From the IMG/VR virus record IMGVR_UViG_3300044634_002300, positions 1-28,907 of that record: a DNA stretch of 28,907 bases; one strand, 5' to 3'. This document shows, one piece after another, positions 13,763 to 28,907 of this stretch. Both the position numbers and the translations under genes were made by a program. The DNA is from a virus. The notes below the pieces were generated by a model that was given only the letters and a program-made list of their open reading frames with translations, was not told where the DNA came from and searched no databases. Within the stretch, counting starts at the first letter, position 1. Each line of letters starts with the position of its first letter.

Positions 13763-14215
13763 ATGACAGAACCTACCTGGACTTACAAGGGTAGGATGAT
13801 CACTAAAATTTCCGATATGCCGGAAGGCACTTACGGATTTATCTACCAGATCACCCACACCCCTACCAACAAAAAATATATCGGCAAGAAAGTCATGTAC
13901 TTTACCCGGAAGGTTAAGCTCACCAAAAAAGAGATCGCCGAACAGACTGGCCCTGGCCGCAAGCCTATCACCAAGTTAGTCACCAAAGAAAGTGACTGGG
14001 CTAGTTACTACGGATCCAACAAAGAGTTCTTATCTTTAACCAGAACCTTCCCTAAAGAAGAATTCCAGAAAGAGATTTTAGAACTTGCTACCGGTAAAAA
14101 GATGCTTACTTACTATGAGTGTAAATATTTATTTAAATACGGTGCCATTGAGAATAATCAGTTATACTACAACGATAACATATTAGGTAAATTCTACAGG
14201 AAAGATTTTATATGA
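13763..14215 (+). CDS. GIY-YIG-like endonuclease (Seg-type, small)
   Basis: The protein has 150 residues. The N-terminal part carries a GIY-YIG-like signature: Y24-G25-F26-I27-Y28 followed by K38-Y39-I40-G41. Next come a basic region (VKLTKKEIAEQTGPGRKPIT) and an ASYYGSNKEF segment, as in Seg-like phage nucleases, where a Tyr-Gly-Ser element follows the Arg/Lys region. A downstream EFQKEILELATG helix and a Glu in TYYECKYLF are candidate catalytic Glu positions. GIY-YIG enzymes cut DNA, often as homing endonucleases. No C-terminal DNA-binding repeat is visible, so it may be a free-standing nuclease or a structure-specific enzyme. The stop overlaps the next start (ATGA). Confidence 0.75.
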   Translation: MTEPTWTYKGRMITKISDMPEGTYGFIYQITHTPTNKKYIGKKVMYFTRKVKLTKKEIAEQTGPGRKPITKLVTKESDWASYYGSNKEFLSLTRTFPKEEFQKEILELATGKKMLTYYECKYLFKYGAIENNQLYYNDNILGKFYRKDFI

Positions 14216-14751
14216 AACTAATCCAAGCACTTCTTACTGAGAGCACTTACTCTAAGATCAAAGATGCTTTTAAAGCAGCTGGAGCTACTTATGTAGGAGC
14301 AGGATCTGAAGGAGTTGTTTATAATGCACCCAATCCCGTACCGGAATTCGGTTACCAGCCTAAAGAAGGGTATCTAGTTAAAATCACCCAGGATGACATC
14401 GAAATGCAAGCTATGGTAAAAGCCCAGGGTAAAAAATTTAAATACCTAGCAAACATCGGTAAGGCAGTTAAGATGGAAAAAGGAGGGTGGTATCAAATCG
14501 AAAACCTGCAGCCAGTCTCTCAGGAATACTCTCAGGAAATTAAAAAGAACGTTCGTATATTAGATCAGTTCTTTAGCGAAGGAGATAAGAGCCTACTTTC
14601 AAACCTATCCCCGTACCTGCAGAAGGTCTTTACCGGTGCAAGGGAGGAGCTGGTTCAAACCGGCATTGATCCTGAAGAAGTTGATATGTTTGGAGATGAC
14701 AACAACGTAATGGCAACCGCCGACGGTCAAATAAAGTTAATCGACTATTAA
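14212..14751 (+). CDS. minimal protein-kinase-like protein with CTS-like N-terminus
   Basis: The protein has 179 residues. It begins MKLIQALLTES, where L8-T9-E10|S11 matches the T4 capsid-targeting signal and cleavage pattern. After it comes a glycine-rich loop G29-A-G31-S-E-G34-V-V-Y, followed by a beta-3-like YLVKITQ, which could hold the ATP-binding Lys. Near the C-terminus, DDNNVMATADGQIKLIDY resembles the Asn and 'D-[FY]-G' metal-binding parts of eukaryotic-like kinases (LIDY in place of DFG). The total length is well below a normal kinase (~250 residues), so it may be a minimal or degenerate kinase fold. The start overlaps the nuclease gene by four bases. If the N-terminal signal is real, it would be packaged in the head. 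Confidence 0.68.
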   Translation: MKLIQALLTESTYSKIKDAFKAAGATYVGAGSEGVVYNAPNPVPEFGYQPKEGYLVKITQDDIEMQAMVKAQGKKFKYLANIGKAVKMEKGGWYQIENLQPVSQEYSQEIKKNVRILDQFFSEGDKSLLSNLSPYLQKVFTGAREELVQTGIDPEEVDMFGDDNNVMATADGQIKLIDY

Positions 14752-14808
14752 GTTGGTTCGGAACGGTTTCGTTCTTATATTAAGGTTATAACTATGTAAT
14801 GCCTCCGC
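14752..14808 (+). promoter_or_regulatory. 57-base gap with short hairpin, boundary before primase
   Basis: This is the longest gene-free gap in the window. A perfect five-base stem GAACG/CGTTC with loop GTTT (14761-14774, extendable by one G-T pair) sits in GGAACGGTTTCGTTCT, followed by TATATTAAGG and TATAACTATG. It has no long U-run, so at best it is a weak terminator. It could instead mark a promoter and start of the primase unit. No Shine-Dalgarno sequence precedes ATG 14809. Confidence 0.3.
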
Positions 14809-15732
14809 ATGGAGAATCCTATACTGCTAAGCGCAATCGAGAACGTACTGGGGAAATCTAATAAGAGGGCCCGGGATAACTATGCATTTAGTTGTCCGTT
14901 CTGCAACCATCGTAAACCCAAGCTTGAGATCAAGCTGAGTACTAACGAGAAGGGGGAGAATCCGTGGGAGTGCTGGGTTTGTAGTGCCCGGGGTAGGACT
15001 GTTAAGTCTCTGCTAAGGCAGATGAAGCTAGGTAAGGATGAAGCGAACCAGGTCTTAAAGCTTGTTAGGAAAGGAGAGACAGCTGACTACGAGGTTACCT
15101 TTGTAGAGCTTCCTAAAGAGTTTCAACCCCTCTCTACCGCCACCCGGACTTCCGTTATTGCAAACAAGATCAGGAACTACCTCTATAAAAGAGGTCTTAC
15201 CGAGAACGACTTTTTAAAATATAACATCGGCTACTGCACCACCGGAGATTATGCTGGAAGGATCATCGTACCTTCATACGATGAAAATAATCAGCTAAAC
15301 TTCTTTGTTGGCAGGACCTTTGAGAATAATTATTTTAAGTACAAGAATCCTCCCGCATCCAAGGATGTGATAGGATTTGAGAATTTAATTAACTGGGACC
15401 AGCCCGTCATCTTAGTTGAAGGAGTCTTCGATGCCATGGCTGTTAAACGTAATGCTGTCCCGATCTTAGGTAAGTCCTTATCTAAGAGTTTAATGTTAAA
15501 ATTAGTGTCAAACAAGGTTCAAGACATTTATATAGCATTGGATAAAGATGCTTTAAAAAGTGCGCTACGGTACTCTGAGCAATTCCTTGCTATGGGTAAA
15601 CGAGTGTTCCTTGTTGACATGATCGATAAAGATCCTTCACAGATGGGTTTTACTACTTTCACCCACCATATTCAACAGTCCCAGGAGCTGACTTTCAGTG
15701 ACCTCCTCCGACACAAATTAGCTTTCGTATGA
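14809..15732 (+). CDS. DNA primase, zinc finger plus Toprim (T4 gp61-type)
   Basis: The protein has 307 residues. The N-terminus has a zinc ribbon with C29-P-F-C32 and C55-W-V-C58. The centre (about 95-190) is the primase core with KYNIGYCTTGDYAGRIIVPS. A Toprim domain follows, with E204-G-V-F-D208 (catalytic Glu and Asp) and an ALDKDA element at D245/D247, then VDMIDKDPSQMG near 265. These match the DnaG-type primases of T4-like phages, which synthesise RNA primers with the phage helicase. The enzyme is small and single-purpose, with no fused helicase. No other start is possible in frame because an upstream TAA lies at 14797. It is coupled to the nuclease gene by an ATGA overlap (15729/15732). 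Confidence 0.9.
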   Translation: MENPILLSAIENVLGKSNKRARDNYAFSCPFCNHRKPKLEIKLSTNEKGENPWECWVCSARGRTVKSLLRQMKLGKDEANQVLKLVRKGETADYEVTFVELPKEFQPLSTATRTSVIANKIRNYLYKRGLTENDFLKYNIGYCTTGDYAGRIIVPSYDENNQLNFFVGRTFENNYFKYKNPPASKDVIGFENLINWDQPVILVEGVFDAMAVKRNAVPILGKSLSKSLMLKLVSNKVQDIYIALDKDALKSALRYSEQFLAMGKRVFLVDMIDKDPSQMGFTTFTHHIQQSQELTFSDLLRHKLAFV

Positions 15733-16511
15733 TTTATCCAGGTTCCAATTTTCTTTTAGAGCATAAGCAAAAACGCATTCAGTTCGACGGAGAGCTAAAG
15801 CAGATCACTCTGCCGGACCGCCGGGTTTACAGAAGAGGCGAAGGCCTTTATTATCCCTCCGTTACTACGATCCTGCAGTACATGCCCAAAAATAAGTTCT
15901 TTGAGCAGTGGATCAAGGACGTAGGTCATAACGCCGATCTCATTATGAGAAGGGCAGGTGAAGAAGGGACGGCAGTCCACAATGCAGCCGAGGAGCTGAT
16001 CAAAGGCGGGGAAGTCCAGTGGATGGATGACTACGGCAAGGCTAAGTACTCGCTGCTGGTATGGCAGATGATCAATAAATTCGTTGAAGCTTGGAAGGCT
16101 ATGGCCCCTGACGTCATTGCTACCGAAGAATTTACCTTCTCAGACGTCCATAAGTACGCCGGTACTGCTGATATCATTGCCAAGATTGGTGATGAGGTTT
16201 GGTTGCTGGATATCAAGACTTCTAACTCCCTACATAAATCTCACGAACTACAGCTATCGGCTTATGCCAAGGCCTGGGAGGAGATGTACGGGCAGAAGAT
16301 CGACCGGACAGGTATCATCTGGCTAAAATCAACTAAGAGAACTGCCTCTAACAAGGACGGAGCATTCCAGGGTAAGGGATGGGAGCTTAAAGTAGTTGAT
16401 AACATCGATGAGAACTTTGAACTGTTCCAGCTCATCTATAAACTCTACCTTTTAGAGCATCCTGCCGACGAACCATCCTTTCAGACATATCCTTTATCGG
16501 TAAAGTTGTAA
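15729..16511 (+). CDS. PD-(D/E)XK nuclease, RecB/Cas4-like
   Basis: The protein has 260 residues. It has the motifs of the RecB-family nuclease fold: an N-terminal Y-P-S-V-T-T-I-L segment, a GTAVHNAAEEL element with the motif His, then KYAGTAD with D148, then WLLDIKTS with D161-I-K163 (the D...D/E-x-K core) and a QLSAYAKAW motif IV. Such proteins act as exonucleases or helper nucleases in DNA repair and recombination. No Cas4-type Cys cluster is visible. It starts inside the primase stop (ATGA overlap), so primase and nuclease make one unit. It is followed by a 45-base gap with a perfect eight-base inverted repeat. Confidence 0.88.
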   Translation: MIYPGSNFLLEHKQKRIQFDGELKQITLPDRRVYRRGEGLYYPSVTTILQYMPKNKFFEQWIKDVGHNADLIMRRAGEEGTAVHNAAEELIKGGEVQWMDDYGKAKYSLLVWQMINKFVEAWKAMAPDVIATEEFTFSDVHKYAGTADIIAKIGDEVWLLDIKTSNSLHKSHELQLSAYAKAWEEMYGQKIDRTGIIWLKSTKRTASNKDGAFQGKGWELKVVDNIDENFELFQLIYKLYLLEHPADEPSFQTYPLSVKL

Positions 16512-16512
16512 G

Positions 16513-16549
16513 CTATTTATAAAGAGCCTATCTTTAGGTAGATAAATAG
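16513..16549 (+). promoter_or_regulatory. inverted repeat CTATTTAT...ATAAATAG before nucleotidyltransferase gene
   Basis: CTATTTAT (16513-16520) and ATAAATAG (16542-16549) are perfect inverted repeats around a 21-base centre with an inner CCTA/TAGG pair, so the RNA could fold into a hairpin. The left arm is part of the recurring CTATTTATAAAG motif. The right arm gives GATAAATA on the coding strand, close to the T4 late box TATAAATA, eight bases before ATG 16557. The site lies at the end of the primase-nuclease unit and could combine a terminator and a promoter. Confidence 0.45.
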
Positions 16550-16556
16550 TAAAAAA

Positions 16557-17468
16557 ATGGGAGGAAACGTATTTGGAACTACAGATAAGATTAACAGGGA
16601 GGATATCAAACCTACCCTGCTTAACTTTTTAAAAGAATTCAAAAGGTTATTCCCCGCAGCCGAACCGCACTTCAGGCAGATGCAGACCCTAGGCTCTGCC
16701 GGCAAGAAAGAGGTATCTGGAGATATCGATTTAGCGATCTCAGACCAAAGCTTTGATAAGATCCAGGACTGGGGGTTAGATCAGAAGCACGTCCAGGAAC
16801 TCTTTGAACTTTTTAAAAAGAGATCTAGGACAGCCTCTGAAGACCAGCTTATGAAAAGAGCTGTGATCGTAGCTATTGCCGAAAAAATCCAAGAGTCTGA
16901 TACCAACCTTGCTGTTGATGTAAAAGGATCTTCCGCAGGAGCGCTATTCCTCCAAGCCCCTCAGTTTAATGAGGCAGGAGAGCAGTTAGAGAAAAACGTT
17001 CAGATTGATATAAACGTAGGAGATATAGACTGGCTTAAGTTCGCTTATTACTCTAGCGTTTACTCCGGTAACGTTAAGGGCCTGCATAGGACCCAGCTCC
17101 TGGTAGCTTTATTTGCTAACAAAGGATATATCTTCTCCCATAACTACGGAGTTAAGAACAAAGACACCCAGGAAGTAGAAGCTAAAACTCCTGCCCAGGC
17201 CATCGAGCTACTAAACAAACTCTACGGCGCTGATTTCAGCAATGAGATATTAGAGAACTATTTTAGCATCATTGAATCCCTTAAGAAGAACTTAAGTGAG
17301 CAGGACCTGAACAGAGTCTACGACATCTACCTTAAGATACTTGACAGCACCCGGGCCGATATCCCGGAAGATCTTCAGGATTACTGGATTGCCAGCCAGG
17401 AGAGGTTACAGCTAAAGGGTAAATTTTTACCCGAGGATTCAAATCTTATAAAGTACCAGATTAAATGA
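16557..17468 (+). CDS. nucleotidyltransferase-fold protein 1
   Basis: The protein has 303 residues. It begins MGGNVFGTTDKINRED and carries a nucleotidyltransferase (Pol beta-type) motif: G46-S47 followed by D56-I-D58 (GSAGKKEVSGDIDLAI). A third acidic residue is likely D151 in KNVQIDINVG, or else D121. The rest is helical (LNKLYGADFSNEILENYFS and on). This fold transfers nucleotidyl groups to nucleic acids, proteins or small molecules; the substrate is not known. The start is an A-rich leader (AAAAAAATG) without a Shine-Dalgarno sequence. The stop overlaps the next gene by four bases (ATGA), and that gene begins with a second such domain, so the two probably form a pair. No CTS-like N-terminus is seen. 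Confidence 0.78.
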   Translation: MGGNVFGTTDKINREDIKPTLLNFLKEFKRLFPAAEPHFRQMQTLGSAGKKEVSGDIDLAISDQSFDKIQDWGLDQKHVQELFELFKKRSRTASEDQLMKRAVIVAIAEKIQESDTNLAVDVKGSSAGALFLQAPQFNEAGEQLEKNVQIDINVGDIDWLKFAYYSSVYSGNVKGLHRTQLLVALFANKGYIFSHNYGVKNKDTQEVEAKTPAQAIELLNKLYGADFSNEILENYFSIIESLKKNLSEQDLNRVYDIYLKILDSTRADIPEDLQDYWIASQERLQLKGKFLPEDSNLIKYQIK

Positions 17469-20389
17469 GCGGTGTAGCAGGAGGAAATAGAATCAAGAGA
17501 CAGAACGTCCAGGATACGTTCAACGATTTTACTGAGAAGGTACTCAGTAAGATCCCCGGCTATAAAGTCTCCAGTCTTTCCGGGAGCGTGAAAGCAGGTT
17601 CAAAGCCTGACTTTGGTGACCTAGACATTATCGCTACCTTTGAGTATGATGATAAGAAAGTAGCCAAGCAGGCGATCATCGATACGGTATCAAAGATGCC
17701 CGATTCCTTGATTATGCCTTTTAAAAGCGAGAGGTATGCCGGTAAAAGATTCTACAATTCAGGAGAGATCATCTCGGTACTATATCCTATCAAAGGAGCA
17801 CCCGGTGAATCAATCCAGGTAGATATTATGGTATCGCTATCGGAGGTAGAGCATCAGTTTAAGAACTCGTTCCTGGACCTACCCGCAGAAGTACAGGGTT
17901 TGATCTTAGGATTAGTTAAGACTGCGCTGCTGGAGCAGGATCCGGCCGAAGTATTTGCCCGTCTGGGAATCAAGAACGTACCGCCTTTAGAAGCAAATCA
18001 GGAATACGAATTCAACCTCTCTAGTGTAAATTTAACCCTTAGAAAAGTAACTCTGGATAATTTCAAAGAAATAGCTAGAGAAGAGATTTGGAAATCCAAT
18101 AACTGGGAGGATATTAAAAACCTTCTTAAGGACTTTGATTTAAGCCAGTCTTTTGAAAAACTTTTAGACCAGGTCACAAGCTCACTAAAAAATCCTAGAA
18201 GTAAGAACCGCGTAGCGGGAATCTTCCGCTCGATGGTATCAGTTAAGTCCGGGGAAGTAGGTACTCCTAAAGGAGACAATAAAGAAAAGGCTTTAGCGGC
18301 CGTTGCTCAAACGCTAACTGAAGCAGAAGGAACTGTGATCGGACTTTACGGGGGCGGCTTCAAACCACCTCACCGCGGTCACTTCCACATCGCTAAAGAG
18401 CTAGCCAAGGATGTAGATTTAATCAAGATTTACATCGGTGGTAGGATCAGAGAGGGAGAAATAATCACAGCTCAGCAGTCAAAAGAGATCTGGGAGGTAT
18501 ATGCAAAGTACTTAGGTAAGCCTACCGAGATTGAAATCGCTCCGATCACACCTATCCTTTCAATCTACCAGGAGATCGAAGCTAACCCAAAGCAAGACTA
18601 TGTAGTAGGTTCTTCTAGCGAACCGGGAGATGTAGGTAAATTTAAAGCTTTGCAGCTTAACAAAGACAATTTCTACGATAAAGCAAAATTAAAAATTGTG
18701 TCAACGATCAACGAAGAAAAACTATCTGCTACTACAGTCAGAACAGATGCCGAGTACCTAAAAACAGGTCAATGGATGCCTGAAGAACTTTCAGCAGACG
18801 ATAAAAAAGCAGTACTCGGAATTTTAAAAGCAACTCCTGAGTACAAAATGGCTGAAGCCATCGATGATGTATTTAGCAACTTCCTAGGAGAAAGCAAAAA
18901 AGAAAAAGCAGAAAAGGAAGAAGAGACTTCGGAAGTTAGTATGGGTACTCCCGTCACCCCGATCTCGGTCGTCCCATCGGTAGTCCGTCAAAGGATGCAA
19001 GACCTTACGGTTTACTTCCGGGATTTAGCCCCGGATGATGTCATCGTTGATTTCAACGGTCAATCGATCGTCATCACCCCGATGATCTACAACAAGGCTG
19101 AACCAACAGGACCTGCTGACTTTACACCCCAGCAAAAACCCATCAACGAATTAGGAACGTACTTCAACTACGTACCGTATATCGCCGGGATACTTGAGCA
19201 TATGATAGCTAAAGGTATGAAGGTAGTCCCGCTACCGGACATCAAAACCAGACAAGATGAAGAAAACGCTGCTAAGACTTTTGGTAAGACTGCTACGTAC
19301 GATCCTGGTAAGAAAGAAGTCGTGCTGTATGTGACAGGCCGTCACCCCAAAGACGTTATGAGGTCTTTCTGCCATGAGATGATTCACCATATGCAGAATC
19401 TAGAAGGACGTCTGCCGATGATCACTACCACCAACACCCAGGAGGATTCAGCGTTAAACGAGATCGAAAAAGAGGCACATTTCCTGGGAAGTATGACTAT
19501 GAGAGAGTACGAAGATTCGATCAAAAATCAAGATACCCTAGAAGAAGGTACCAAATACCGCTCCATCGTTGCTGATGTTAGGCAGGCTGTTAACGATGCT
19601 TTAAACGTTTTAATAACGGGGAAAGAAGAGCTAAAAAAACAAGCGAAGGATTTAAAGTTAAAAGGTGAAATAGAAAAAGCGAATAAACTTTTAAAATCTA
19701 TAAATAAAGTTAAAGGATATAACATTAAGACCATAAGAGAGCCTGGGAAGAAGGACATTGAGATTGCCGGAAAGTACGGAATGTCCTCTTTAGGAGCTAT
19801 GCTATCAACAGAATCCCAGGTAGCGTACCTAGGAGAGTTTACAAGCCAGAGCGAGAAAGGAACTAGATCAAAAGACGGTAAACCGATCACTGTAGAAGTT
19901 AACCTAAAGTTTGCTCAATCTAATGAGGTCAAGCCCGGGGAGTACTACATCGACGGAGAGGCTTCATCAGATGACGGTGAACTAGATATTATAATAGCGT
20001 TTAATCCCGGAGACGGTGCTAGCCTCCTTCAAAAGATACAACCTACTTTGACCGATCTCATCCGTCACGAGATCGAACACCTTACCCAGTCCGGAGCCCA
20101 GCTCCAGCCCACCAAATGGATGCGAGGTGACCTAGCCATGCGCAAGAGGATAAGGCAGAATCCAGAGACATTCTACAAGTACTTCATGCTACCTAAAGAA
20201 GTAGATGCAAACATCCAAGGGCTTTACATGAAAGCAAACTACGACAAGACTGACTTTCAGTCAACTGTCGATCAGTACTTAGATAGCTTGGTTGATACAG
20301 AAGTAATATCGGTAGAAAAGAGGAAAGAAGTCTACGATAAGTTTAAAGCCCGGATCCCTCAGATCGGAGGCATACCAAACCTAAATTAA
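17465..20389 (+). CDS. 974-aa multidomain protein: nucleotidyltransferase, cytidylyltransferase, two HExxH metallopeptidase domains
   Basis: The protein reads as four modules. (1) Residues 1-286: a nucleotidyltransferase with G40-S41, D52-L-D54 and D120. (2) 287-476: a nucleotidyl/cytidylyltransferase with G293-LYGGGFKPPHRGH (the GxFxPxHxGH-type nucleotide site) and a downstream SATTVRT. (3) 477-694: a zinc peptidase with C636-HEMIH (H637, E638, H641) and a likely third ligand in EIEKEAH (about 666-672). (4) 695-974: a second zinc peptidase with HEIEH (868-872) and a likely Glu ligand in PKEVDANIQG (E912). The boundaries coincide with LTE286|A, LGE476|S and LEE694|G, which fit the T4-type prohead protease rule. 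A polyprotein processed in the capsid is inferred. It is coupled to the preceding nucleotidyltransferase by an ATGA overlap and ends two bases before the next ATG. Confidence 0.82.
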   Translation: MSGVAGGNRIKRQNVQDTFNDFTEKVLSKIPGYKVSSLSGSVKAGSKPDFGDLDIIATFEYDDKKVAKQAIIDTVSKMPDSLIMPFKSERYAGKRFYNSGEIISVLYPIKGAPGESIQVDIMVSLSEVEHQFKNSFLDLPAEVQGLILGLVKTALLEQDPAEVFARLGIKNVPPLEANQEYEFNLSSVNLTLRKVTLDNFKEIAREEIWKSNNWEDIKNLLKDFDLSQSFEKLLDQVTSSLKNPRSKNRVAGIFRSMVSVKSGEVGTPKGDNKEKALAAVAQTLTEAEGTVIGLYGGGFKPPHRGHFHIAKELAKDVDLIKIYIGGRIREGEIITAQQSKEIWEVYAKYLGKPTEIEIAPITPILSIYQEIEANPKQDYVVGSSSEPGDVGKFKALQLNKDNFYDKAKLKIVSTINEEKLSATTVRTDAEYLKTGQWMPEELSADDKKAVLGILKATPEYKMAEAIDDVFSNFLGESKKEKAEKEEETSEVSMGTPVTPISVVPSVVRQRMQDLTVYFRDLAPDDVIVDFNGQSIVITPMIYNKAEPTGPADFTPQQKPINELGTYFNYVPYIAGILEHMIAKGMKVVPLPDIKTRQDEENAAKTFGKTATYDPGKKEVVLYVTGRHPKDVMRSFCHEMIHHMQNLEGRLPMITTTNTQEDSALNEIEKEAHFLGSMTMREYEDSIKNQDTLEEGTKYRSIVADVRQAVNDALNVLITGKEELKKQAKDLKLKGEIEKANKLLKSINKVKGYNIKTIREPGKKDIEIAGKYGMSSLGAMLSTESQVAYLGEFTSQSEKGTRSKDGKPITVEVNLKFAQSNEVKPGEYYIDGEASSDDGELDIIIAFNPGDGASLLQKIQPTLTDLIRHEIEHLTQSGAQLQPTKWMRGDLAMRKRIRQNPETFYKYFMLPKEVDANIQGLYMKANYDKTDFQSTVDQYLDSLVDTEVISVEKRKEVYDKFKARIPQIGGIPNLN

Positions 20390-20391
20390 AG

Positions 20392-20952
20392 ATGGGAGTA
20401 TTAGCAGATTTACTACTTACTGAAGAAGAGCAGAATCCAAAACCTAGAGGCAAGCTCTTCTGTGATATGGACGGAGTGCTGACGGACTTCGATCAGAGGT
20501 TTGATCACTACTTTGAAATGCTTCCAGCCGAGTATGAAGAACGGAGAGGCAAGGCAGGGTTCTGGAGTGCCATCGCCCCGATCGGGCAGATCTTCTGGGA
20601 AGGAATGGAATGGACTCCTTACGGAAAAGTTTTATGGAAGCACATCCAGGATTTTAATCCTACTTTACTTACCGCTCCTTCATCCGAGCAATCATCCAGA
20701 GACGGCAAAGTAGAATGGGCGAATAGAGAACTTGATCCTATCCCTCCTATCATCTTTAGACAAGCTAAAGAAAAGCACCTAGAATGCTCCGGACCCGATG
20801 ACATCTTGATCGATGACCGGGAAGATACTATCGAGAGATGGAAAGATGCCGGAGGAATAGGAATTTATCACCCCAAGAACGGGGATCCCACCTTAATTAT
20901 CAGAAGATTAGAAACACTAGGTTATGTCAAGCCATCTAAAGAAGGAATTTGA
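20392..20952 (+). CDS. HAD-superfamily phosphatase with CTS-like N-terminus
   Basis: The protein has 186 residues. The N-terminus MGVLADLLLTEEEQ has L9-T10-E11, a match to the CTS cleavage pattern. The HAD core follows: LFCDMDGVLTDF with D25 (nucleophile) and D27; a Thr/Ser motif near LLTAPSS; a basic residue element in FRQAKEKHLE (motif II-type Lys region); and DILIDDREDTIERW with D141/D142 as motif III. This is typical of 5'-nucleotidase (NT5C)-like HAD enzymes, which remove phosphates from nucleotides. The substrate is unknown. The start lies two bases after the 974-residue gene. It overlaps the next gene by 29 bases. Confidence 0.82.
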   Translation: MGVLADLLLTEEEQNPKPRGKLFCDMDGVLTDFDQRFDHYFEMLPAEYEERRGKAGFWSAIAPIGQIFWEGMEWTPYGKVLWKHIQDFNPTLLTAPSSEQSSRDGKVEWANRELDPIPPIIFRQAKEKHLECSGPDDILIDDREDTIERWKDAGGIGIYHPKNGDPTLIIRRLETLGYVKPSKEGI

Positions 20953-21496: not shown

Positions 21497-21511
21497 CTAT
21501 TTATAAAGAAA
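21497..21511 (+). promoter_or_regulatory. CTATTTATAAAGAAA motif, candidate late promoter-like element
   Basis: This is the same 13-base core (CTATTTATAAAGA) as at 25914, with only two further bases differing in each direction. It sits directly after a stop codon and 20 bases before the ATG of the next gene. No Shine-Dalgarno sequence follows (AACTTCAATG). The exact repeat in otherwise unrelated gaps makes chance unlikely. Confidence 0.5.
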
Positions 21512-21516
21512 CTTCA

Positions 21517-22446
21517 ATGATTTTAACTGAGTCAAAAGTTACGACAGTACTAACAGAAGGTCTTCGCTACCATTTGCAGACCGGCAATCCTTTATACGAG
21601 AATATTTACCGTCCAGGGTCAGAAGAATACTTCAACACTATTCGTCAGGCACGTCTACTTATGAACGAAGGTCTGCTACAGAATCTATGTCTAGAAGATA
21701 TGGAGCTTTTATTTGAAACCCAGGTAGGTGAGTATGCTGAATTTGAAGGGAAAAAAGTACCTTTAGATTTCCCGATGCTGGAAGAGATTACTTTTGTAAT
21801 CCCGGATGCAGAAGCAACCTGGCCTCAAGCCTCTACAAATCCTCAGATCTTTAAGATGGGAGAACAGCAGTGGAAAAAGCTTTCTGATATATCCAAGGCA
21901 TCCGGAGGATTCGGATATACTGCAAAGTACTCCGATATTGACCCCGTCATGGAAGATCCTGCAACAGGTGAGATTGTGACTTTCACTGACAGTGATCAGG
22001 TCCAGATGCCCGTAGTCCTGAAGTACCAGGAGGCAGGAGTAATAAAGTACGAGATCGTAGTAGGAGAAGATATCCTTCACAGCCTGATTGACTCAGGCAC
22101 CAATCCCGATCCTGATATCTGGGTTGTGGACATTACAAGCGAGGCACTAGCCGAGGCTAAGTACCAGGGCAAGGAAGTAGCTTTGAATAAACCCAAAAGA
22201 GGAGGACCTAAGAAGTTCTTCGTTTATACCCGCAACCCTAAGACCGGCAAAACTATCAAAGTGAACTTCGGAGGTACTACAGGACTGACTGCTAAGATCA
22301 ACAATCCGGAAGCACGCCGTAACTTTGCCAGCCGTCACAACTGCGATCAGAAAAACGATAAAACCAAGCCCGGGTACTGGTCTTGCAGACTCCCAAGGTA
22401 CGCCAAGTTGATTGGACTTAAATCAAGCTTTGGTGGTTTCTGGTGA
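21517..22446 (+). CDS. cargo-type protein with double LTE N-terminus and Cys-bearing C-terminal domain
   Basis: The protein has 309 residues and no named family. The N-terminus MILTESKVTTVLTEGLR holds L3-T-E5|S6 and L12-T-E14|G15, both fitting prohead protease sites. The middle (60-230) is a mixed alpha/beta part (FEGKKVPLDFPMLEEITFVI onward). The C-terminal ~75 residues (KFFVYTRNPKTGKTIKVNFG, then SRHNC276DQKNDKTKPGYW, then C290) form a compact basic domain with two Cys and a His, a type I have seen in aquatic T4-like phages; it may bind DNA. One base after its stop comes the next gene's start. It is likely an internal virion protein if the signal is real. Confidence 0.72.
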   Translation: MILTESKVTTVLTEGLRYHLQTGNPLYENIYRPGSEEYFNTIRQARLLMNEGLLQNLCLEDMELLFETQVGEYAEFEGKKVPLDFPMLEEITFVIPDAEATWPQASTNPQIFKMGEQQWKKLSDISKASGGFGYTAKYSDIDPVMEDPATGEIVTFTDSDQVQMPVVLKYQEAGVIKYEIVVGEDILHSLIDSGTNPDPDIWVVDITSEALAEAKYQGKEVALNKPKRGGPKKFFVYTRNPKTGKTIKVNFGGTTGLTAKINNPEARRNFASRHNCDQKNDKTKPGYWSCRLPRYAKLIGLKSSFGGFW

Positions 22447-22447
22447 T

Positions 22448-22927
22448 ATGATTAAGTTAATAGATCTTATAAAAGAAATAGGAGACTCAAGTTCTCAACC
22501 ATATAAATTTGATTTTTATGGTGATTATGATGTTATGAGAGTTTATGGATTTTATACTGAAAATTATCCATATACTGTAGAATTACAATATGATGATTTA
22601 GATTTCTATGACGAGGATACAACTAACGTATTAGGAGTAAGATTCTATGTCTCAGATGAAGATGAACCGGATTTGGAACGAGATGATATTGTAACAAATA
22701 AAGGTGAACTGTTTAGAGTTATGGCAACTGTAACAGCTATTATTAAAAAAGATATTCAAAATCACCCTGAAATTGATACTATAACATTCACCCCATCAAA
22801 AAAAGAAGGTGAAACTGCAAATGTATCTAGATTAAACCTTTACACACGATATATTAAATATGAATTCCCTAATGCTATTGTAAAACCATATGGTACTAGT
22901 GGTGGTGTAATAGTAAAACTCAAATGA
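22448..22927 (+). CDS. small CTS-like protein, A/T-rich gene
   Basis: About 159 residues if ATG 22448 is used. That start gives MIKLIDLIKEIG, which matches the MKLIDLLLEE signal in neighbouring genes (I8-K-E10), and it sits one base after the previous stop. An in-frame ATG at 22412 would overlap the previous gene and add 12 unlike residues, so I prefer 22448. The body is acidic (YDDLDFYDEDTTN) and then ordered (LNLYTRYIKYEFP). The gene is visibly richer in A/T than its neighbours, with codon third positions mostly A or T, suggesting a different origin. The family is unknown. The stop overlaps the next start (ATGA). Confidence 0.7.
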   Translation: MIKLIDLIKEIGDSSSQPYKFDFYGDYDVMRVYGFYTENYPYTVELQYDDLDFYDEDTTNVLGVRFYVSDEDEPDLERDDIVTNKGELFRVMATVTAIIKKDIQNHPEIDTITFTPSKKEGETANVSRLNLYTRYIKYEFPNAIVKPYGTSGGVIVKLK

Positions 22928-23449: not shown

Positions 23450-23592
23450 TGGCTAAGATCAAGTCTCAAGCAGTATCAACATTCCAGGACAGGCCGAAGG
23501 TCAGCAGACCGGGGGTACATTCTAAGACCAAGACTTCAGTTCTTAAAACCAGCAAGAACTATACCAAGAAGTATCGTGGCCAAGGTAAATAG
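23449..23592 (+). CDS. 47-aa basic protein, overlapping both neighbours
   Basis: The start ATG overlaps the previous stop (TAATG), and the frame stays open for 47 codons to TAG at 23590-23592. The sequence is very basic (MAKIKSQAVSTFQDRP, then VHSKTKTSVLKTSKNY, then KKYRGQGK), with about a quarter Lys/Arg, no Cys and no acidic cluster. It resembles short basic phage proteins that bind nucleic acid, but no family is named. The next gene starts inside it at GTG 23576. Its small size means it is easily missed. Reading-frame fit and neighbour coupling support it as real. Confidence 0.7.
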   Translation: MAKIKSQAVSTFQDRPKVSRPGVHSKTKTSVLKTSKNYTKKYRGQGK

Positions 23593-24085
23593 ATCTGACA
23601 TAAAAGCCTTTATGCGTGACCTCCTCAGGGAGGTTATTGTGGAAGGTGGTATGGAGGAAAATTTACGTGATTGGGTAAAAGCAAAATGGGTACGGATAGA
23701 TTCAAGCGGCAATATAGCAGGGGCCTGCGGTACTTCAAAAAATCAGAAAAACCCGGACAGATGCTTACCTATAGCCAAGGCCCGGTCCTTGACCAAGAGT
23801 CAGAGAGCTGCTACGGCTGCTAAAAAGAAAAAAGCAGGGTCAAAGGGAGCTCAGGTAGTCCCTAACACTAAAGCTGCTAAAGTAACCAAGGAACAGGTTA
23901 TAGAGACTCTTAGCTCTATGCTCATAGAAAAGTCAGGATACTCTCCAACCCAGCCCGACAAATGGTCTTATGCTATAAGCCAGGCCAAGGCCAAGTACGA
24001 TACTTACCCTTCAGCTTTAGCTAACTTATGGGCTTCCAAGAAGTATAAGGAGCTGGGAGGCAGATGGAAGAAAAAGAAAAAGTAA
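23576..24085 (+). CDS. small basic protein with GACG..DRCLP motif, DUF5872-like
   Basis: The protein has 169 residues from GTG 23576. The shorter ATG 23611 would give MRDLLREVIVEGG and is also possible, and would look more like the CTS-type starts. The core WVRIDSSGNIAGACGTS, then C51...C63 with NPDRCLPIAKA, matches the small domain I know as DUF5872, common in T4-like phages and with no known role. It is followed by a Lys-rich region and a C-terminal helical part with SGYSPTQPDKWSYAISQAKA and YKELGGRWKKKKK. It is a likely DNA-binding or virion-internal protein. The overlap with the 47-residue gene supports coupling. Confidence 0.74.
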   Translation: MAKVNRSDIKAFMRDLLREVIVEGGMEENLRDWVKAKWVRIDSSGNIAGACGTSKNQKNPDRCLPIAKARSLTKSQRAATAAKKKKAGSKGAQVVPNTKAAKVTKEQVIETLSSMLIEKSGYSPTQPDKWSYAISQAKAKYDTYPSALANLWASKKYKELGGRWKKKKK

Positions 24086-24130
24086 ATAAGAACTACTATG
24101 AAACTAATAGACCTACTTTTAGAAGAAAAA
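24084..24130 (+). repeat. dispersed repeat of leader and CTS-like codons, copy 1
   Basis: The leader AAATAAGAACTACT plus the ATG and ten codons encoding MKLIDLLLEE is repeated at 24419-24465 with about five mismatches in 47 bases (leader AAATAAGAAGTATT). The repeat includes non-coding leader, so it reflects DNA-level copying rather than protein selection only. Confidence 0.75.
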
Positions 24131-24424
24131 AAAGCAAAAGAAACTTTCGAGGAATTTGCTACCACAAGAGGTGCAGGTGCTGCTAAGATAGCATCCAATG
24201 CCGAAGAGAAGGGCGGACTAGCTCTTTTGACTTGGCATCACTTTAAGGTCAAGGCCCCGTACTACAAAAAGGCAACAGCCGGTAAGTTCGACGAAGAGTC
24301 TGCTAAAAAAGAATTTGAAAGTACCTTAAAAAGCATATCATTAGATATGACCGCTATTGAATTTCAAAGAGAGGTAGGCCGGCTAGAGGTGCTAGGGGAG
24401 CTGCTGATTAGAGAGAAAAAATAA
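24098..24424 (+). CDS. 108-aa small protein with CTS-like N-terminus
   Basis: The N-terminus MKLIDLLLEEKK has L8-E9-E10, the position used for cleavage in the T4 signal. The body is helical and charged (KETFEEFATTRGAGAAKIAS, then LALLTWHHFKVKAPYYKKAT), with no Cys and no membrane segment. The family is unknown; similar small proteins occur in aquatic T4-like phages. The leader and first ten codons repeat at 24433 with about five base differences. It is a likely internal head protein if the signal is functional. Confidence 0.72.
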   Translation: MKLIDLLLEEKKAKETFEEFATTRGAGAAKIASNAEEKGGLALLTWHHFKVKAPYYKKATAGKFDEESAKKEFESTLKSISLDMTAIEFQREVGRLEVLGELLIREKK

Positions 24425-24465
24425 GAAGTATTATGAAACTAATTGACCTTCTCTTAGAAGAAACT
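24419..24465 (+). repeat. dispersed repeat of leader and CTS-like codons, copy 2
   Basis: Second copy of the leader-plus-signal repeat described at 24084, here AAATAAGAAGTATT followed by the codons for MKLIDLLLEE. The two copies sit 335 bases apart in front of unrelated gene bodies, so a short unit may have been copied to new genes. Confidence 0.75.
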
Positions 24466-24654
24466 AATCCGGAAGATAAAGTTATTCTGGATATTCCCTT
24501 ATTCATTAGACTTCTAGAATATGCCAGAGAAGATGCTCAGGCAGACGTAGATCTACATTTCATGGCCGATAACGCTATCAGACTTTCCACGGAGGGTGAA
24601 ACTTTAACAATGGATCATTACGATCAAATCATCAAGCAAGATGAAGCTAAGTAA
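24433..24654 (+). CDS. 73-aa small protein with CTS-like N-terminus
   Basis: The N-terminus MKLIDLLLEETN has L8-E9-E10. The remainder (about 12-73) is acidic and helical (VILDIPLFIRLLEYAREDA, then MADNAIRLSTEGETLTMDHY). It has no motif and no Cys. It overlaps the next gene by 14 bases. Candidate internal protein. Confidence 0.7.
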   Translation: MKLIDLLLEETNPEDKVILDIPLFIRLLEYAREDAQADVDLHFMADNAIRLSTEGETLTMDHYDQIIKQDEAK

Positions 24655-25060
24655 ACTCATCAGCGAAGCAGAGGTTAAATGCCCTCCCGCAACACAGGAC
24701 ATTGATCTCAATCTTGAGAACAGACAGAAAGCTATTGACGAATACGGATACGGCCCTGCTGACCCTTCCCAAAAGAACGAAAAGTTCTGGAAGAAGAAGA
24801 TGGATATGTGGCAGGTCGATACAGCTGAAGAGCTTAAGAATATGGTTTGCGGTACTTGTGCCGCTTTTGATATTACAGCTAAGACTCTAGACTGTATCGC
24901 CAAGGGCATCGGATCGGACATGGGTACGGAAGATCCTTACGATGTGATTGATGCCGGTGAGCTAGGATACTGCAGATTTCTAAAGTTTAAGTGCGCAGCC
25001 TCTAGAACCTGCGACGCCTGGGTGGTAGGAGGGCCGATAGTCGATAAAAAAAATGGCTAA
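24641..25060 (+). CDS. Cys-rich small protein with CTS-like N-terminus
   Basis: The protein has 139 residues. MKLSKLISEA has I7-S8-E9|A10, a CTS-type site. The body has seven Cys (14, 70, 73, 85, 111, 118, 124), with MVCGTCAAF and GYCRFLKFKCAASRTCDAW clusters; the latter resembles small proteins of aquatic T4-like phages. The Cys spacing could bind zinc or an iron-sulphur cluster, or give disulphides; the sequence does not decide. It overlaps both neighbours (14 and 8 bases). Confidence 0.74.
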   Translation: MKLSKLISEAEVKCPPATQDIDLNLENRQKAIDEYGYGPADPSQKNEKFWKKKMDMWQVDTAEELKNMVCGTCAAFDITAKTLDCIAKGIGSDMGTEDPYDVIDAGELGYCRFLKFKCAASRTCDAWVVGGPIVDKKNG

Positions 25061-25697: not shown

Positions 25698-25699
25698 GA

Positions 25700-25912
25700 A
25701 TGAAAAATACAGAATTCACAAACCTGATCCAGGAACTAGCAGCTGAAGTGCTGGCAGAAGGAATTCACGATCCTATGAATCCAGGCATCCTCAAGAAGAG
25801 ATTAGGTAAGCTTTCATGTACAAAAGTAAGAGCGGCTAGGGGTAAACTTAAAGACAAAGGCACTACGTATGCAAAAGCCCTGCAGAGGTACCTTAACTAT
25901 CACTGTCAGTGA
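25700..25912 (+). CDS. 70-aa basic small protein with CTS-like N-terminus
   Basis: The N-terminus MKNTEFTNLIQELAAEVLAEG has I10-Q-E12 and L18-A-E20|G21, the same two-site spacing as the 27421 gene (I10-Q-E12 and L18-I-E20). The rest is basic (ILKKRLGKLSCTKVRAARGK, then KALQRYLNYHCQ), probably a compact helical nucleic-acid-binding domain. After trimming at E20 a ~50-residue basic protein would remain, suited to condensing DNA in the head. Similar small proteins are known to me from aquatic T4-like phages without a role. Confidence 0.74.
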   Translation: MKNTEFTNLIQELAAEVLAEGIHDPMNPGILKKRLGKLSCTKVRAARGKLKDKGTTYAKALQRYLNYHCQ

Positions 25913-25913
25913 T

Positions 25914-25928
25914 CTATTTATAAAGAAA
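25914..25928 (+). promoter_or_regulatory. CTATTTATAAAGAAA motif, candidate late promoter-like element
   Basis: This is the same core as at 21497, 25 bases before ATG 25939, in a 26-base gap after a TGA stop. The following AAAACCTTACC has no Shine-Dalgarno sequence. Together with the copies at 2201, 16513 and 21497 it suggests a shared element of late genes. Confidence 0.5.
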
Positions 25929-25938
25929 AAACCTTACC

Positions 25939-26163
25939 ATGTCTAAAGTAACTTTCAACGGAGGCTATTACCTAACAGGTACTTCCCCAGTATCAGGTAG
26001 CTGGAGAGCAATTACCTCAGTATCCTCAAGCACTGTAATCGAATCTGTTAAGTTTGCAGATGGCAGCACAGCCGCAAGCCTGCCACTAGCAGCTGGTCTT
26101 AATCTAGATGTAAAGATTACACAAATCAAACTATCAGCAGGAGGAGCTTTCTTAGCTAAATAA
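25939..26163 (+). CDS. 74-aa small beta-rich structural protein
   Basis: A Ser/Thr/Ala/Gly-rich protein with alternating beta-like segments (MSKVTFNGGYYLTGTSP, then WRAITSVSSSTVIESVKFAD, then LDVKITQIKLSAGGAFLAK). No signal, Cys or motif is present. It could be a capsid-decoration or small fibre-cap protein; nothing decides. It has its own CTATTTATAAAGA element and ends two bases before the next gene. Confidence 0.68.
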   Translation: MSKVTFNGGYYLTGTSPVSGSWRAITSVSSSTVIESVKFADGSTAASLPLAAGLNLDVKITQIKLSAGGAFLAK

Positions 26164-26164
26164 T

Positions 26165-27424
26165 ATGAAGCTGCAGGAAAGCGACTTAGGGGACCTTATT
26201 CTTCATGCGACTAACTCGGAAACCGTTGAAGATTTTCTAGACAAAGTAGAAGCCGATAAACTAGAAAGCAATCTTTCAACTAAAGAACTTGAAGATTTTT
26301 ATAAGGAAAATAGAAATGTAGCTAAAAAAAAATTAAAGATGAATAAAGAAGCTATTTTAAAAGCTATCAAAGAGGTACTGACTGAAAAGAAAGCTACATA
26401 TTGCGGAAGATGCGGACATACTCACGTCAAAGGAACTCCTTGCCCAAGACCTTTCAAAGAAGGGTTATCAACTTACGGCGATGATGCCTATTTCGTAGCA
26501 CCAAACAAAGGGAAGATGAAAAAAGAAGATATTTTAAAAGCCGTTAAAGAAGTATTAGAGGAATCTCAAACTTTTGTAATTTCCCCAGATCCTGCATCTA
26601 GAGAGGCCGCAAAAAAAGCTGCTCAATTAGCAGGAGCTAAGGATCCAGAACTTTACAAGCAGATCGATACTATGAAATCTAATGATTCAGTTACAGTCGG
26701 AGAAGCTATGGTTTCTTCAGATGATCGAGTTAGTTATCTTGAAATTGCATTAGGGCGTGTTTGGAATATGGGACGTGGTAAAAATAAGATTGATTTAAAC
26801 TCAATGGCTCAAGAATTAGTTAACGATATGTTTGCTGAATCGTTAGATGAAGATTTAGACCTAGGTCATGAAGATCACGAGCCGCACATGATCAAATCAG
26901 AGCTTTACCAGATTGCAAAATACGCTATCCAGCTTTATAAGATGGTAGATCAGTTTGACAGTGAGGCTGAAGTTGATTTTCCCGCCTGGTGGCAGTCCAA
27001 AATCACAAAAGCAAACTCAATGGTCAGCAGCGCCAAGCACTACCTTGAGTTCGAACTAGCTGAACCAGCAATGGATCAGGCTATGGTAGAGGAAAAAGCT
27101 AAAATGTATTATCATGTATTAGAAGATGGAGGATATGGTCGTATAGGACATCATAGTTACTTTAATACTCAAGAAGAAGCCGAAAAACGAGCTGATACAT
27201 TATCTGATATGTTCCCTGAATCAGAGTTTTATGTTGAAGCTTATCCTAGCAAAAAAGAACCAGTTAAAGTAACTATGGAAGAAGCTAAAAAAGAACTAGA
27301 CAAAGTCGGTAAAGAAGATAAAGATATCGACAACGACGGCGATGTAGACAAGACTGATAAGTACCTCAAAGGTAGAAGAGTTAAGATCGGCGCAGCAATC
27401 GCCCAGCATTCTAAGAAGAAATGA
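26165..27424 (+). CDS. mosaic protein with two internal CTS-like copies, zinc ribbon and EF-hand-like tail
   Basis: The protein has 419 residues. (a) Residues 1-58: MKLQESDLGDLILHATNSE, then a charged helix. (b) 59-75: MNKEAILKAIKEVLTEKK, a CTS-like unit. (c) About 79-95: a zinc ribbon with CGRC80/C83, H85/H87 and C93. (d) About 118-135: a second CTS-like unit, MKKEDILKAVKEVLEES. (e) A helical domain (VSYLEIALGRVWNMGRGK onward, then HMIKSELYQIAKYAIQLYKM). (f) A short domain with YYHVLEDGGYGRIGHHSYF. (g) An EF-hand/dockerin-like calcium site, D387-I-D389-N-D391-G-D393-V-D395 ending in TDKYL. The parts differ in base composition (d/e and f more A/T-rich), so it looks assembled from pieces. It may be cut into smaller products. 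Confidence 0.72.
   Translation: MKLQESDLGDLILHATNSETVEDFLDKVEADKLESNLSTKELEDFYKENRNVAKKKLKMNKEAILKAIKEVLTEKKATYCGRCGHTHVKGTPCPRPFKEGLSTYGDDAYFVAPNKGKMKKEDILKAVKEVLEESQTFVISPDPASREAAKKAAQLAGAKDPELYKQIDTMKSNDSVTVGEAMVSSDDRVSYLEIALGRVWNMGRGKNKIDLNSMAQELVNDMFAESLDEDLDLGHEDHEPHMIKSELYQIAKYAIQLYKMVDQFDSEAEVDFPAWWQSKITKANSMVSSAKHYLEFELAEPAMDQAMVEEKAKMYYHVLEDGGYGRIGHHSYFNTQEEAEKRADTLSDMFPESEFYVEAYPSKKEPVKVTMEEAKKELDKVGKEDKDIDNDGDVDKTDKYLKGRRVKIGAAIAQHSKKK
26336..26389 (+). repeat. internal repeat coding CTS-like unit, copy 1
   Basis: The bases coding KMNKEAILKAIKEVL repeat at 26513-26566 (KMKKEDILKAVKEVL), including an identical TATTTTAAAAGC core. Each copy starts with an internal Met and ends in (V)LxE, so it looks like a signal-bearing gene start that has been fused in-frame. 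Confidence 0.65.
26513..26566 (+). repeat. internal repeat coding CTS-like unit, copy 2
   Basis: Second copy of the repeat described at 26336, with LEE|S as its end. Present within the same reading frame, 177 bases downstream. Confidence 0.65.
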
Positions 27425-27990
27425 AACTAAATAAGCTTAAAGATATAATTCAAGAGGCATACTTTGAGGTGCTTATTGAGGCTGCCCAGCCCCCGGTCCA
27501 GGGCCCGAAGAGGGACCAAACAGACCCTACGTTGAATATTCTCGGTAAGTTTCCTACCCTGCAAAAGACTCTCACCCATCTCCTAACACCCCAGTACATG
27601 CAATTTGTAGAGAAGGTAGGATGGATGTCCCCTAAACCCTCTACGTTCAAGGTAGAGTTTAAGTCCGGACAAGATATGGTCTTAAAGTGGATGGGTAAGA
27701 ATTTTGAAGCCAATATCGAGGGTAAGCGCTACTACCTAGCCAACCTACCGGAGTACCAGCAGGCACTCGACAAGATCGGTATCATTCTCTCCCACGGTCC
27801 AATCCAGACAGGAATGGATGCACTAGGAGGAGAAGAGGGAGCAGGAGGAGATGTATTCGCAGGAGCAGGAGCACCTGAACCGGCTGCTGATGCCGGTGCT
27901 GATGCCGGTGCTGAAGCAGGAGCCGAGACAGGAGCAGAAACCCCCGCAGCTACTCCCGGAGCTGGAGAGGACGTATTCGCAGGACTCTAA
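27421..27990 (+). CDS. small protein with two-site CTS-like N-terminus and Gly/Ala-rich tail
   Basis: The protein has 189 residues. MKLNKLKDIIQEAYFEVLIEA has I10-Q-E12|A13 and L18-I-E20|A21, the same spacing as the 25700 gene. The centre (30-130) contains a compact domain (LGKFPTLQKTLTHLLTPQYM, then YYLANLPEYQQALDKIGIIL). The last ~55 residues are an Ala/Gly/Glu/Asp low-complexity tail ending in GEDVFAGL; the phrase DVFAG is repeated at about 142-146 and at the end. This may be an internal head protein or a decoration protein tail. It overlaps both neighbours (ATGA and TAATG). Confidence 0.72.
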   Translation: MKLNKLKDIIQEAYFEVLIEAAQPPVQGPKRDQTDPTLNILGKFPTLQKTLTHLLTPQYMQFVEKVGWMSPKPSTFKVEFKSGQDMVLKWMGKNFEANIEGKRYYLANLPEYQQALDKIGIILSHGPIQTGMDALGGEEGAGGDVFAGAGAPEPAADAGADAGAEAGAETGAETPAATPGAGEDVFAGL

Positions 27991-28907
27991 TGGATTTAGT
28001 CGACAAGATAATCAAGGAATGGTCTTGGAGATGTGCTAAGGGTTATCCGCAGTTGGACTCTGAGGAAGATCTTCGTATCTTAGAAGGATTATTTAAAATT
28101 AACCTTACTGAAGCATCTTTGAGAGCAAATACACTAGCTGCCAAACAGCTACTAATTCAAAAATACCCAGAAAACTTTTCCAATATGTCTAACGACTATA
28201 GGATAGGTAACACAGGCAAAATTTCATCAGCTGAATTTGCTGAGATTATAGAAAAAGAGTTCGGTCAAGCTCCTGAAGTTATTGCTCCTAACTCTGAACT
28301 TAATAATCAGAATACTAAACCCGACGGAAGTCGTGAATTCTCACTATTCAAATTTAAAACTGATAAAGGAGCTAGCTCTTTAATACTAGCTGGCGGTCCA
28401 AAAGAACTTAATAGAGAGAGGCAAGAGCACGGAATTATTAATGCAATTAACTCTATAGAAGGAGTAAAGAGCGTTCGAGACCGGGACGGGCAGACTATCG
28501 AAGGAGTTTTAAGAGCTGAAAAAGTACCTATTATCCCTGGCTACAAACACGAACCTTACTCGGATATCAAGCTTATAATCCAAGGAACTGACGATCCTTT
28601 TCTAATCTCAGCTAAAGGACCTGTCCCACCCGTCATTGCAGGAGGAGGACTACAGGGTATTATGTTGCTCTCTGATAAGGTACAGAAGTTTGTAAAGCAG
28701 TTCTACGAGGACGCCTACAAGTACTATAAACAGATTTTCGATGAAAACGAATCTCTTACTTACGAAACAAATCTCTACAAGACTAAGTTTTTCAAAGACG
28801 TAAACCGGAAAGTTCCTGAGAATATCGTTTTTGAGATCTTAAGAGGTACACCTGCAGTTGGAGGAGAGGTAGATATGATCTATGTAGGTCCTATGGATGT
28901 CGTAACT
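27990..28907 (+). CDS. large protein cut by window end, possible PD-(D/E)XK-like element
   Basis: Starts at ATG 27990 (TAATG overlap with the previous stop), stays open to the window end (306 codons) and has no stop, so it is partial at the 3' end. Near residues 39-42, L39-T-E41|A42 fits a prohead protease site, so the first ~41 residues may be removed. The later part holds KHEPYSDIKLIIQGTDDPFL then ISAKGPVPPVIAGGG, a D...(I/S)xK pattern that resembles a PD-(D/E)XK nuclease core, as in some virion proteins of T4-like phages. The family is not confirmed. Confidence 0.68.
   Translation, partial: MDLVDKIIKEWSWRCAKGYPQLDSEEDLRILEGLFKINLTEASLRANTLAAKQLLIQKYPENFSNMSNDYRIGNTGKISSAEFAEIIEKEFGQAPEVIAPNSELNNQNTKPDGSREFSLFKFKTDKGASSLILAGGPKELNRERQEHGIINAINSIEGVKSVRDRDGQTIEGVLRAEKVPIIPGYKHEPYSDIKLIIQGTDDPFLISAKGPVPPVIAGGGLQGIMLLSDKVQKFVKQFYEDAYKYYKQIFDENESLTYETNLYKTKFFKDVNRKVPENIVFEILRGTPAVGGEVDMIYVGPMDVVT

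Follow-up and report, generated by a model that had tools for sequence, protein, structure and literature searches.

The window analysed here, a 28,907-base stretch that makes up the whole of IMG/VR record IMGVR_UViG_3300044634_002300, is a virus fragment and, judged from its sequence, belongs to an uncultured, Immutovirus-like T4-type myophage. A block of 21 genes runs from position 14212 to its end at 28907, and many of them open with a short N-terminal leader that resembles the capsid-targeting sequence (CTS) of T4. A first-pass annotation of the window had drawn attention to these leaders, and every N-terminus it quoted is present in the sequence. We propose that the leaders label proteins, enzymes among them, for packaging into the phage head.

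T4 supplies the template for this reading. Its protease gp21 is reported to cut after L/I-X-E, and the first ten residues of internal protein (IP) III are enough to get a protein packaged; of these, residues 4 and 7 are needed for targeting and residues 8 and 10 for cutting (PMC9026906). In the window leaders MKLIQALLTE, MIKLIDLIKE and MKLIDLLLEE, positions 4, 7 and 8 are hydrophobic and position 10 is Glu. Under a criterion of hydrophobic residues at 4 and 7, L/I at 8 and Glu at 10, with a shift of one allowed, six window genes carry a strict leader and others carry looser or two-site versions. Below, a slash marks the predicted cut, and all window genes given with both coordinates lie on the + strand.

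These sites are concentrated at the N-termini of block genes. An (L/I)xE site with its Glu at residues 9–13 occurs in 11 of the 21 genes. Counted by position, [LI]xE with Glu in that span fills 12 of 105 positions (11%) in the block, compared with about 1% of positions deeper in these proteins, and with 2 of 65 (3%) in upstream tail genes. A strict motif that keeps the T4 register requires Glu at 9–11, L/I at E-2 and hydrophobic residues at both E-6 and E-3; its expected counts were computed from internal positions of the same proteins. Six of the 35 window genes carry it at the N-terminus, where 0.13 would be expected (P = 4e-9), and in a related 173-kb contig, G005, it stands on 8 of 240 genes against 0.6 expected (P = 2e-7). 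A looser motif is enriched in the run of genes that reaches from the block up to and including the capsid gene, relative to the rest of the genome, both in G005 (12/31 versus 9/206, p = 4e-7) and in Flavobacterium phage vB_FspM_immuto_2-6A (genus Immutovirus, hereafter immuto; 9/30 versus 10/198, p = 1e-4).

The first gene of the block, 14212–14751, encodes a kinase-like protein with the strict leader MKLIQALLTE/S at residues 1–10. Its AlphaFold model has a mean predicted local distance difference test score (pLDDT) of 89.9, and residues 1–9 alone fall below 50; predicted order starts after residue 9, which places the start of the structure at the predicted cut. The 50 best PDB matches in a fold search are all protein kinases (best E 5e-5), with modest TM-scores of 0.37–0.49 that we attribute to a short C-lobe. 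Together with the motifs GxGxxG, VKIT, DDNN and LIDY (Gly-rich loop, catalytic Lys, D..N / IDx), the model predicts a protein-kinase-like fold. A Pfam scan of the window protein returned no match, and tblastn against annotated phages found nothing, though a syntenic gene of immuto encodes an ortholog that is 29% identical. Orthologs at roughly 20–30% identity retain leaders (MISLQKILKE, MKLSQIILE, MKLTNIISE and MISIYNILKE).

Homologs, head genes and the prohead protease

Two further genes suggest that the leader is a detachable module. A HAD-type 5'(3')-deoxyribonucleotidase-like protein (20392–20952; PHROG 2643, E 1.9e-21; Pfam matches below cut-off) carries the motif DxDGxxTDF in the form CDMDGVLTDF behind the leader MGVLADLLLTE/E. 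Its orthologs begin MKKVMGNLADLLLEE/S in immuto, MGKLADLLLFEE in L017 and MKTLAELLE in L020. The window and immuto copies thus carry ADLLLTE and ADLLLEE leaders, whereas homologs in Agrobacterium and Sinorhizobium phages start directly at the catalytic motif or no more than about 14 residues from it, and have no LxE leader. At 24433–24654, the leader MKLIDLLLEE/T precedes a small DIPLFIRLLEYARED domain; homologs at most other loci start M-NPRDTITLDVPLFIRLLEYARED, their initiating Met falling approximately where the leader ends in the window. One kind of leader therefore stands on mutually unrelated window proteins, and homologs of two of them occur elsewhere without it.

Where the leader is present, its key positions persist. 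The gene at 24641–25060 has MKLSKLISE/A ahead of a Cys-rich CPPATQ domain (AlphaFold mean pLDDT 38.8), and its family offers 30 distinct short leaders. Glu lies at residue 9 or 10 in 29 of them, [LI]xE occurs in 24, and Ala directly follows the Glu in 24 of the 29. Grouped at 85% body identity, nine of ten clusters retain the Glu while the intervening residues vary. The conserved Glu and following Ala lend indirect support to cleavage after (L/I)xE. More generally, the leader pattern is retained across homologs of 20–75% body identity, so that the N-terminal conservation which the first-pass annotation had put forward as a check holds within this phage group. In L203–L208 the Cys-rich domain is fused behind N-terminal domains starting PGGFHPFHAGH (nucleotidyltransferase-like), joining two of the cargo families.

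A DNA-level search against annotated phages gave no match for the window, and relatives were sought by protein searches instead. Between the window and immuto, identity is 58% for the baseplate protein and 47% for the 974-aa protein (17465–20389). Relatives of the latter are encoded in 21 viral loci, including a 120-kb contig at 93% identity and G005 at 78%. In G005 the block leads, on one strand, into the genes for terminase, portal, the gp21-type protease, the scaffold and the major capsid protein; this arrangement recurs in immuto.

A gp21-type protease, the gene that the first-pass annotation had suggested looking for, is present in 7 of 10 related records as Peptidase_S77 (PF03420; E 1e-29 to 1e-36), among them the relatives at 93% and 78% identity and immuto. 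It also matches the head maturation protease family PHROG 207. In G005 the major capsid protein itself starts MELNSLLNE/S, the same kind of leader as on the block genes, and that of immuto starts MELNQLFE/G. The scaffolds of both phages hold many LxE sites, which fits a gp22-type substrate. In the distant 344-kb G009, which has the protease, no N-terminus within the 50 kb examined carries the strict motif.

Leaders on enzymes in cyanophage virions

Mass spectrometry of virions of the T4-like cyanophage S-CREM2 detected a SAM (S-adenosylmethionine) hydrolase, a Cas9-like nuclease, an APH-like kinase and a cytidylyltransferase (PMC10665884); whether such enzymes are packaged or contaminate the preparation was left undecided by the authors (PMC10665884, PMC9602691). 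Several of these proteins begin with a leader of the same design: MKDFDSFLEE/F on the gp6 SAM hydrolase, MKRFDAFLTE/E on the gp14 kinase, and MKNFSSFLTE/A on the gp154 cytidylyltransferase. A fifth detected protein, gp13, starts MKDLHSFLTE/Q. Within the regions examined, 4 of the 18 detected non-structural proteins have the strict motif, compared with 1 of the 88 that went undetected (Fisher p = 0.0027), counted by hand from annotated starts; an automatic gene caller recovered three of the four, missing gp14. A looser motif, scored mechanically, gives 6 of 18 versus 7 of 88 (p = 0.0086). The 25-residue N-terminus of the gp12 Cas9-like nuclease (L149:7704-10313) ends RFASFMAE/A, like a displaced targeting leader.

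Other phages repeat the pattern. The virion-detected NMNAT of S-SCSM1 starts MKSFLQFLKE/A, the virion-detected cytidylyltransferase of S-SZBM1 starts MRFRQFIIE/A, and a kinase of S-CRM01 reported in virions starts MISFDQFLSE/K. Related kinases begin MKRLGRLLAE (S-B68), MKSLKLFE (S-N03) and MKSLKIFE (ME01). A comparable block occurs in the Methylophilales phage Melnitz, where one leader reads MQGFKTFLSE/A and a cytidyltransferase starts MKKFSEIIE/A; this phage has the HAD gene and other families in common with the window. Since similarly labelled enzymes occur in cyanophage virions by published mass spectrometry, proteins bearing the label are probably cargo that is delivered together with the DNA.

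Weighing the packaging interpretation

We put the probability at about 0.8 that the leaders are T4-type capsid-targeting sequences on some ten cargo proteins, cut by a gp21-type protease, and that these proteins are probably delivered. On this model, about ten block genes would encode cargo of a T4-type prohead, and a leader of 9–12 residues, or a two-site version of about 20, would act like the T4 CTS. Its hydrophobic face would dock each new protein on the scaffold core, around which the shell then forms; the prohead protease would cut after (L/I)xE and leave the mature protein free in the head. The kinase-like, deoxyribonucleotidase-like HAD, Cys-rich and other mature proteins would then probably enter the next host with the DNA. 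The analysis demonstrates the leaders themselves, with their enrichment, conservation and modular character, and a protease in close relatives; homology and the published proteomics of other phages argue for packaging, and the T4 precedent suggests cleavage at the exact site and delivery. The first-pass annotation had proposed a set of internal head proteins that includes enzymes, and the protease, the conserved leaders and the cyanophage virion data support that view; neither of two refuting conditions it had named, a missing gp21-type protease and homologs devoid of the N-terminal pattern, came true.

The best-surviving alternative, in our judgement an unlikely one, is that the tagged proteins are prohead core components, consumed or shredded in head maturation like T4 gp67 and gp68, and are not delivered in working form. 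Scaffolds are LxE-rich, and several window genes look core-protein-like in this respect. The gene at 25700–25912 has the two-site leader MKNTEFTNLIQE/LAAEVLAE/G (orthologs MKKSEFQNLIQELAAEVLTE/G and MKKSEFQNLIQELAAEVLAE/G), and that at 27421–27990 has MKLNKLKDIIQE/AYFEVLIE/A, both Glu residues being conserved in relatives (MKLQDLRHIIEE/AYLEVLIE/A in G005, MKLEQLRDIIEE/AYYEVLSE in L017). Outside the block, adjoining the baseplate genes, 2213–2686 begins MKASEFKEIIKE/AVREAIQE/ELKTILSE/A (immuto ortholog MKLDLLKKLIKEAVKEAVREELTVILSE/D), and its product is possibly a further core-associated protein. The products of these three genes may be core proteins instead of delivered cargo. A weak member of the set, 26165–27424, starts MKLQE/S and has the internal leader-like segments KAIKEVLTE/K and KAVKEVLEE/S; its C-terminus matches PHROGs 4359 and 38880, and 764 weakly. 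Against wholesale shredding, LxE totals including the leader are 1 for 14212, 20392 and 22448 and 2 for 24641, and several bodies are recognisable folded enzymes or domains. The leaders are also short and terminal, and homologous enzymes have been recovered from mature cyanophage virions.

Less probable still is a generic origin unrelated to capsids: an amphipathic N-terminal helix, an initiation bias (M-K-L-I, AT-rich codons), or a membrane or degradation signal. Low-GC genomes favour AAA and ATT codons right after the start, and similar N-termini occur on some genes beyond the head region, both of which speak for such an origin. It leaves unexplained the fixed Glu at 9 or 10 and the Ala across diverged leaders, the enrichment from the block to the head genes, the leader on the major capsid protein and the link to detection in cyanophage virions. 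Chance matches in short N-termini deserve hardly any weight: LxE is short and about 1% of positions match it, whereas the strict motif so far exceeds its expected count in the window and is conserved at 20–75% body identity. Tests that took the proteins' own internal positions as background rejected both chance and composition.

Several observations count against packaging by these leaders. Part of the block is untagged, there being no convincing leader on the genes at 14809, 15729, 16557, 17465, 20924, 22924, 23186, 25053 and 25939, and some leaders are off-register. The strict motif is weak in immuto (4/228 versus 0.95 expected, P = 0.016), and its P values are somewhat optimistic because the motif was defined post hoc from examples; the conservation evidence is independent of them. 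The window carries no protease gene, a search of its own record being uninformative because the fragment spans 28.9 kb. G010 encodes a gp21-type protease, yet its copy of the 24433 domain has no leader, and the HAD ortholog of HTVC008M lacks L/I at P3. In S-CREM2, 14 of the 18 detected non-structural proteins have no strict leader, some of them probably being tail proteins; in S-SCSM1 alone, the motif occurs in 1 of 20 virion proteins, which is not significant (p = 0.13). The literature search, which covered open-access papers, found no virion proteome of immuto or another Immutovirus.

The closest precedents for packaging by such leaders are the CTS-bearing T4 proteins IPI, IPII, IPIII and Alt (PMC3012670, PMC9026906), which the window leaders match in length, in hydrophobic residues at 4 and 7, in L/I at 8 and in Glu at 10. 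The two systems also have in common a gp21-type protease and diverse bodies behind one shared leader. Pfam and PHROG scans found no homology of the window bodies to T4 IPs. T4 has only a handful of these proteins: apart from the enzyme Alt they are mostly anti-restriction inhibitors, and the ip genes sit at two loci. The window, in contrast, has about ten in one block beside head genes, kinase-like and nucleotidase-like proteins included.

T-even phages as a group have diverse internal proteins with only the packaging leader in common (PMC3012670, PMC12373910), and at least ten non-homologous leader-tagged ip proteins are credited to T-even relatives by Repoila et al. 1994, as cited in PMC12373910. 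Those sets are spread over phages, whereas the window phage would hold a similar number in a single block and belongs to a different group, infecting Bacteroidota. The T4-like cyanophages S-CREM2, S-SCSM1, S-SZBM1 and S-CRM01 offer a further parallel in enzymes such as kinases and NMNAT/cytidylyltransferases, which were found in their virions. In S-SCSM1 and S-SZBM1 the blocks are close to genes for primase and ribonucleotide reductase, and gene families of the window recur in related Kyanoviridae. N-terminal head-targeting signals are also known from the giant phages SPN3US and phiKZ and from P1 DarB; SPN3US propeptides differ in being mostly longer than 100 residues with an AxE motif, and DarB has another signal, within its first 30 residues.

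The principle is not new, since diverse tagged proteins are known in T-even phages, Alt is a packaged enzyme, and injection is known for T4 IPs and Alt. What appears to be new is the enzyme-rich set and its spread. The first-pass annotation had been unaware of any description of so diverse a cargo set in one block. The open-access literature yielded no description of a block of about ten tagged genes beside head genes, of its enzyme content, of its occurrence in Bacteroidota phages or of the link to cyanophage virions, and no paper tying the cyanophage virion enzymes to a targeting leader.

More broadly, and with rather less assurance than for the window itself, we favour the view that the leader is a general, swappable label in T4-related phages from both marine and freshwater settings, whether they infect Bacteroidota, cyanobacteria or other hosts. 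It would turn unrelated enzymes into injected cargo readable from their N-termini, namely kinases, nucleotidases, NMNAT-like proteins, a SAM hydrolase, a Cas9-like nuclease and a zeta-toxin-family kinase. This offers a testable answer to why metabolic and signalling enzymes recur in cyanophage virions (PMC10665884, PMC9602691), namely that they carry a removable packaging leader. If it is right, the proteins that a large group of environmental phages injects would be predictable from sequence, and the leaders could serve as ready tags with which to load proteins into phages that infect hosts other than E. coli.

Further leader-bearing genes and leader families

The remaining leaders of the window vary in quality. 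The sequences listed by the first-pass annotation are real and of unequal strength, MILTE5 at 21517 being very short; the list also passed over two genes, 2213, which lies outside the interval it covered, and 23576. The gene at 21517–22446 begins MILTE/SKVTTVLTE/G, and both sites are retained in G005, L012 and L017. Its C-terminus matches PHROG 7595 (E 3e-9) and is linked to the C-terminus of the Melnitz cytidyltransferase through immuto gp099, which matches residues 500–650 of that protein. The next gene, 22448–22927, has the strict leader MIKLIDLIKE/I and a weak DUF6934-like match below cut-off. At 23576–24085, where the start is uncertain (GTG 23576 or ATG 23612), a two-site leader reads ...DLLRE/VIVE/GG; the G005 ortholog has MHAFMRELLLE/VIKE, and the immuto counterpart has a similar two-site leader.

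MKLIDLLLEE/K opens 24098–24424, whose orthologs start MRLLELLRE/A in immuto, with the body conserved, and MIKLKSIISE/A in L182. The immuto homolog (NC_055915.1 112261-112575, 104 aa) is annotated as tRNA(Ile2) C34 agmatinyltransferase, which is probably a mis-annotation. The last gene, 27990–28907, is cut by the contig end and begins MDLVDKIIKE/W. For this gene the first-pass annotation had noted LTE/A at residues 39–42, and the T4-register IKE10 is a better one than LTE41; orthologs begin MNLIDKVIEEW (G005), MNVLDKILLEW (L017) and MSVVDKIVIEW (immuto). Cleavage there is uncertain because the downstream W..RC.KGYP is conserved.

The 974-aa protein at 17465–20389 is untagged and multidomain, with an NMNAT/cytidylyltransferase-like domain (PF01467, E 0.0034, below cut-off, residues 294–320). 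It is annotated as NMNAT in immuto, and LTE/A occurs just upstream of the NMNAT-like domain. Single-domain counterparts of this domain are leader-tagged and were detected in cyanophage virions. The protein also carries two HExxH-like motifs, HEMIHH and HEIEH.

Tagged genes occur more densely in the uncultured phage L182 (1548-6045) than in the window: neighbouring genes there have MIKLxxLLxE-like starts (MIKLKDLLE, MIKLKSIISE, MIKLTDILNE, MIKLRSLLKE, MIKLKPLLE and MIKLKTLLKE). P-loop proteins with leaders are encoded in L020:8389-9042 (MKLTDLIFE/A; PF06414 zeta-toxin family, E 6.5e-12) and in HTVC008M (L143:11387-12049; MIPFILKE/G), and these too are possibly packaged cargo.

Other leader types recur in these phages. 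The C-termini of gp22-like scaffolds (L036:3095-4450, L023:15626-16867) end RMQKLAGIIK or RWQKLAGIIK, and segments like RMQKLAGIITE/S form the leader of several other genes (immuto 111675 and 25061, L117:5531-5989). This type is possibly a second class of core-targeting leader, with a motif in common with the scaffold. A third family, M..FDLKKFLVENKL, stands on different proteins (immuto 1803, 103806, 117631 and 118632; G005 157296; L117:2480), and some of its genes adjoin the protease gene.

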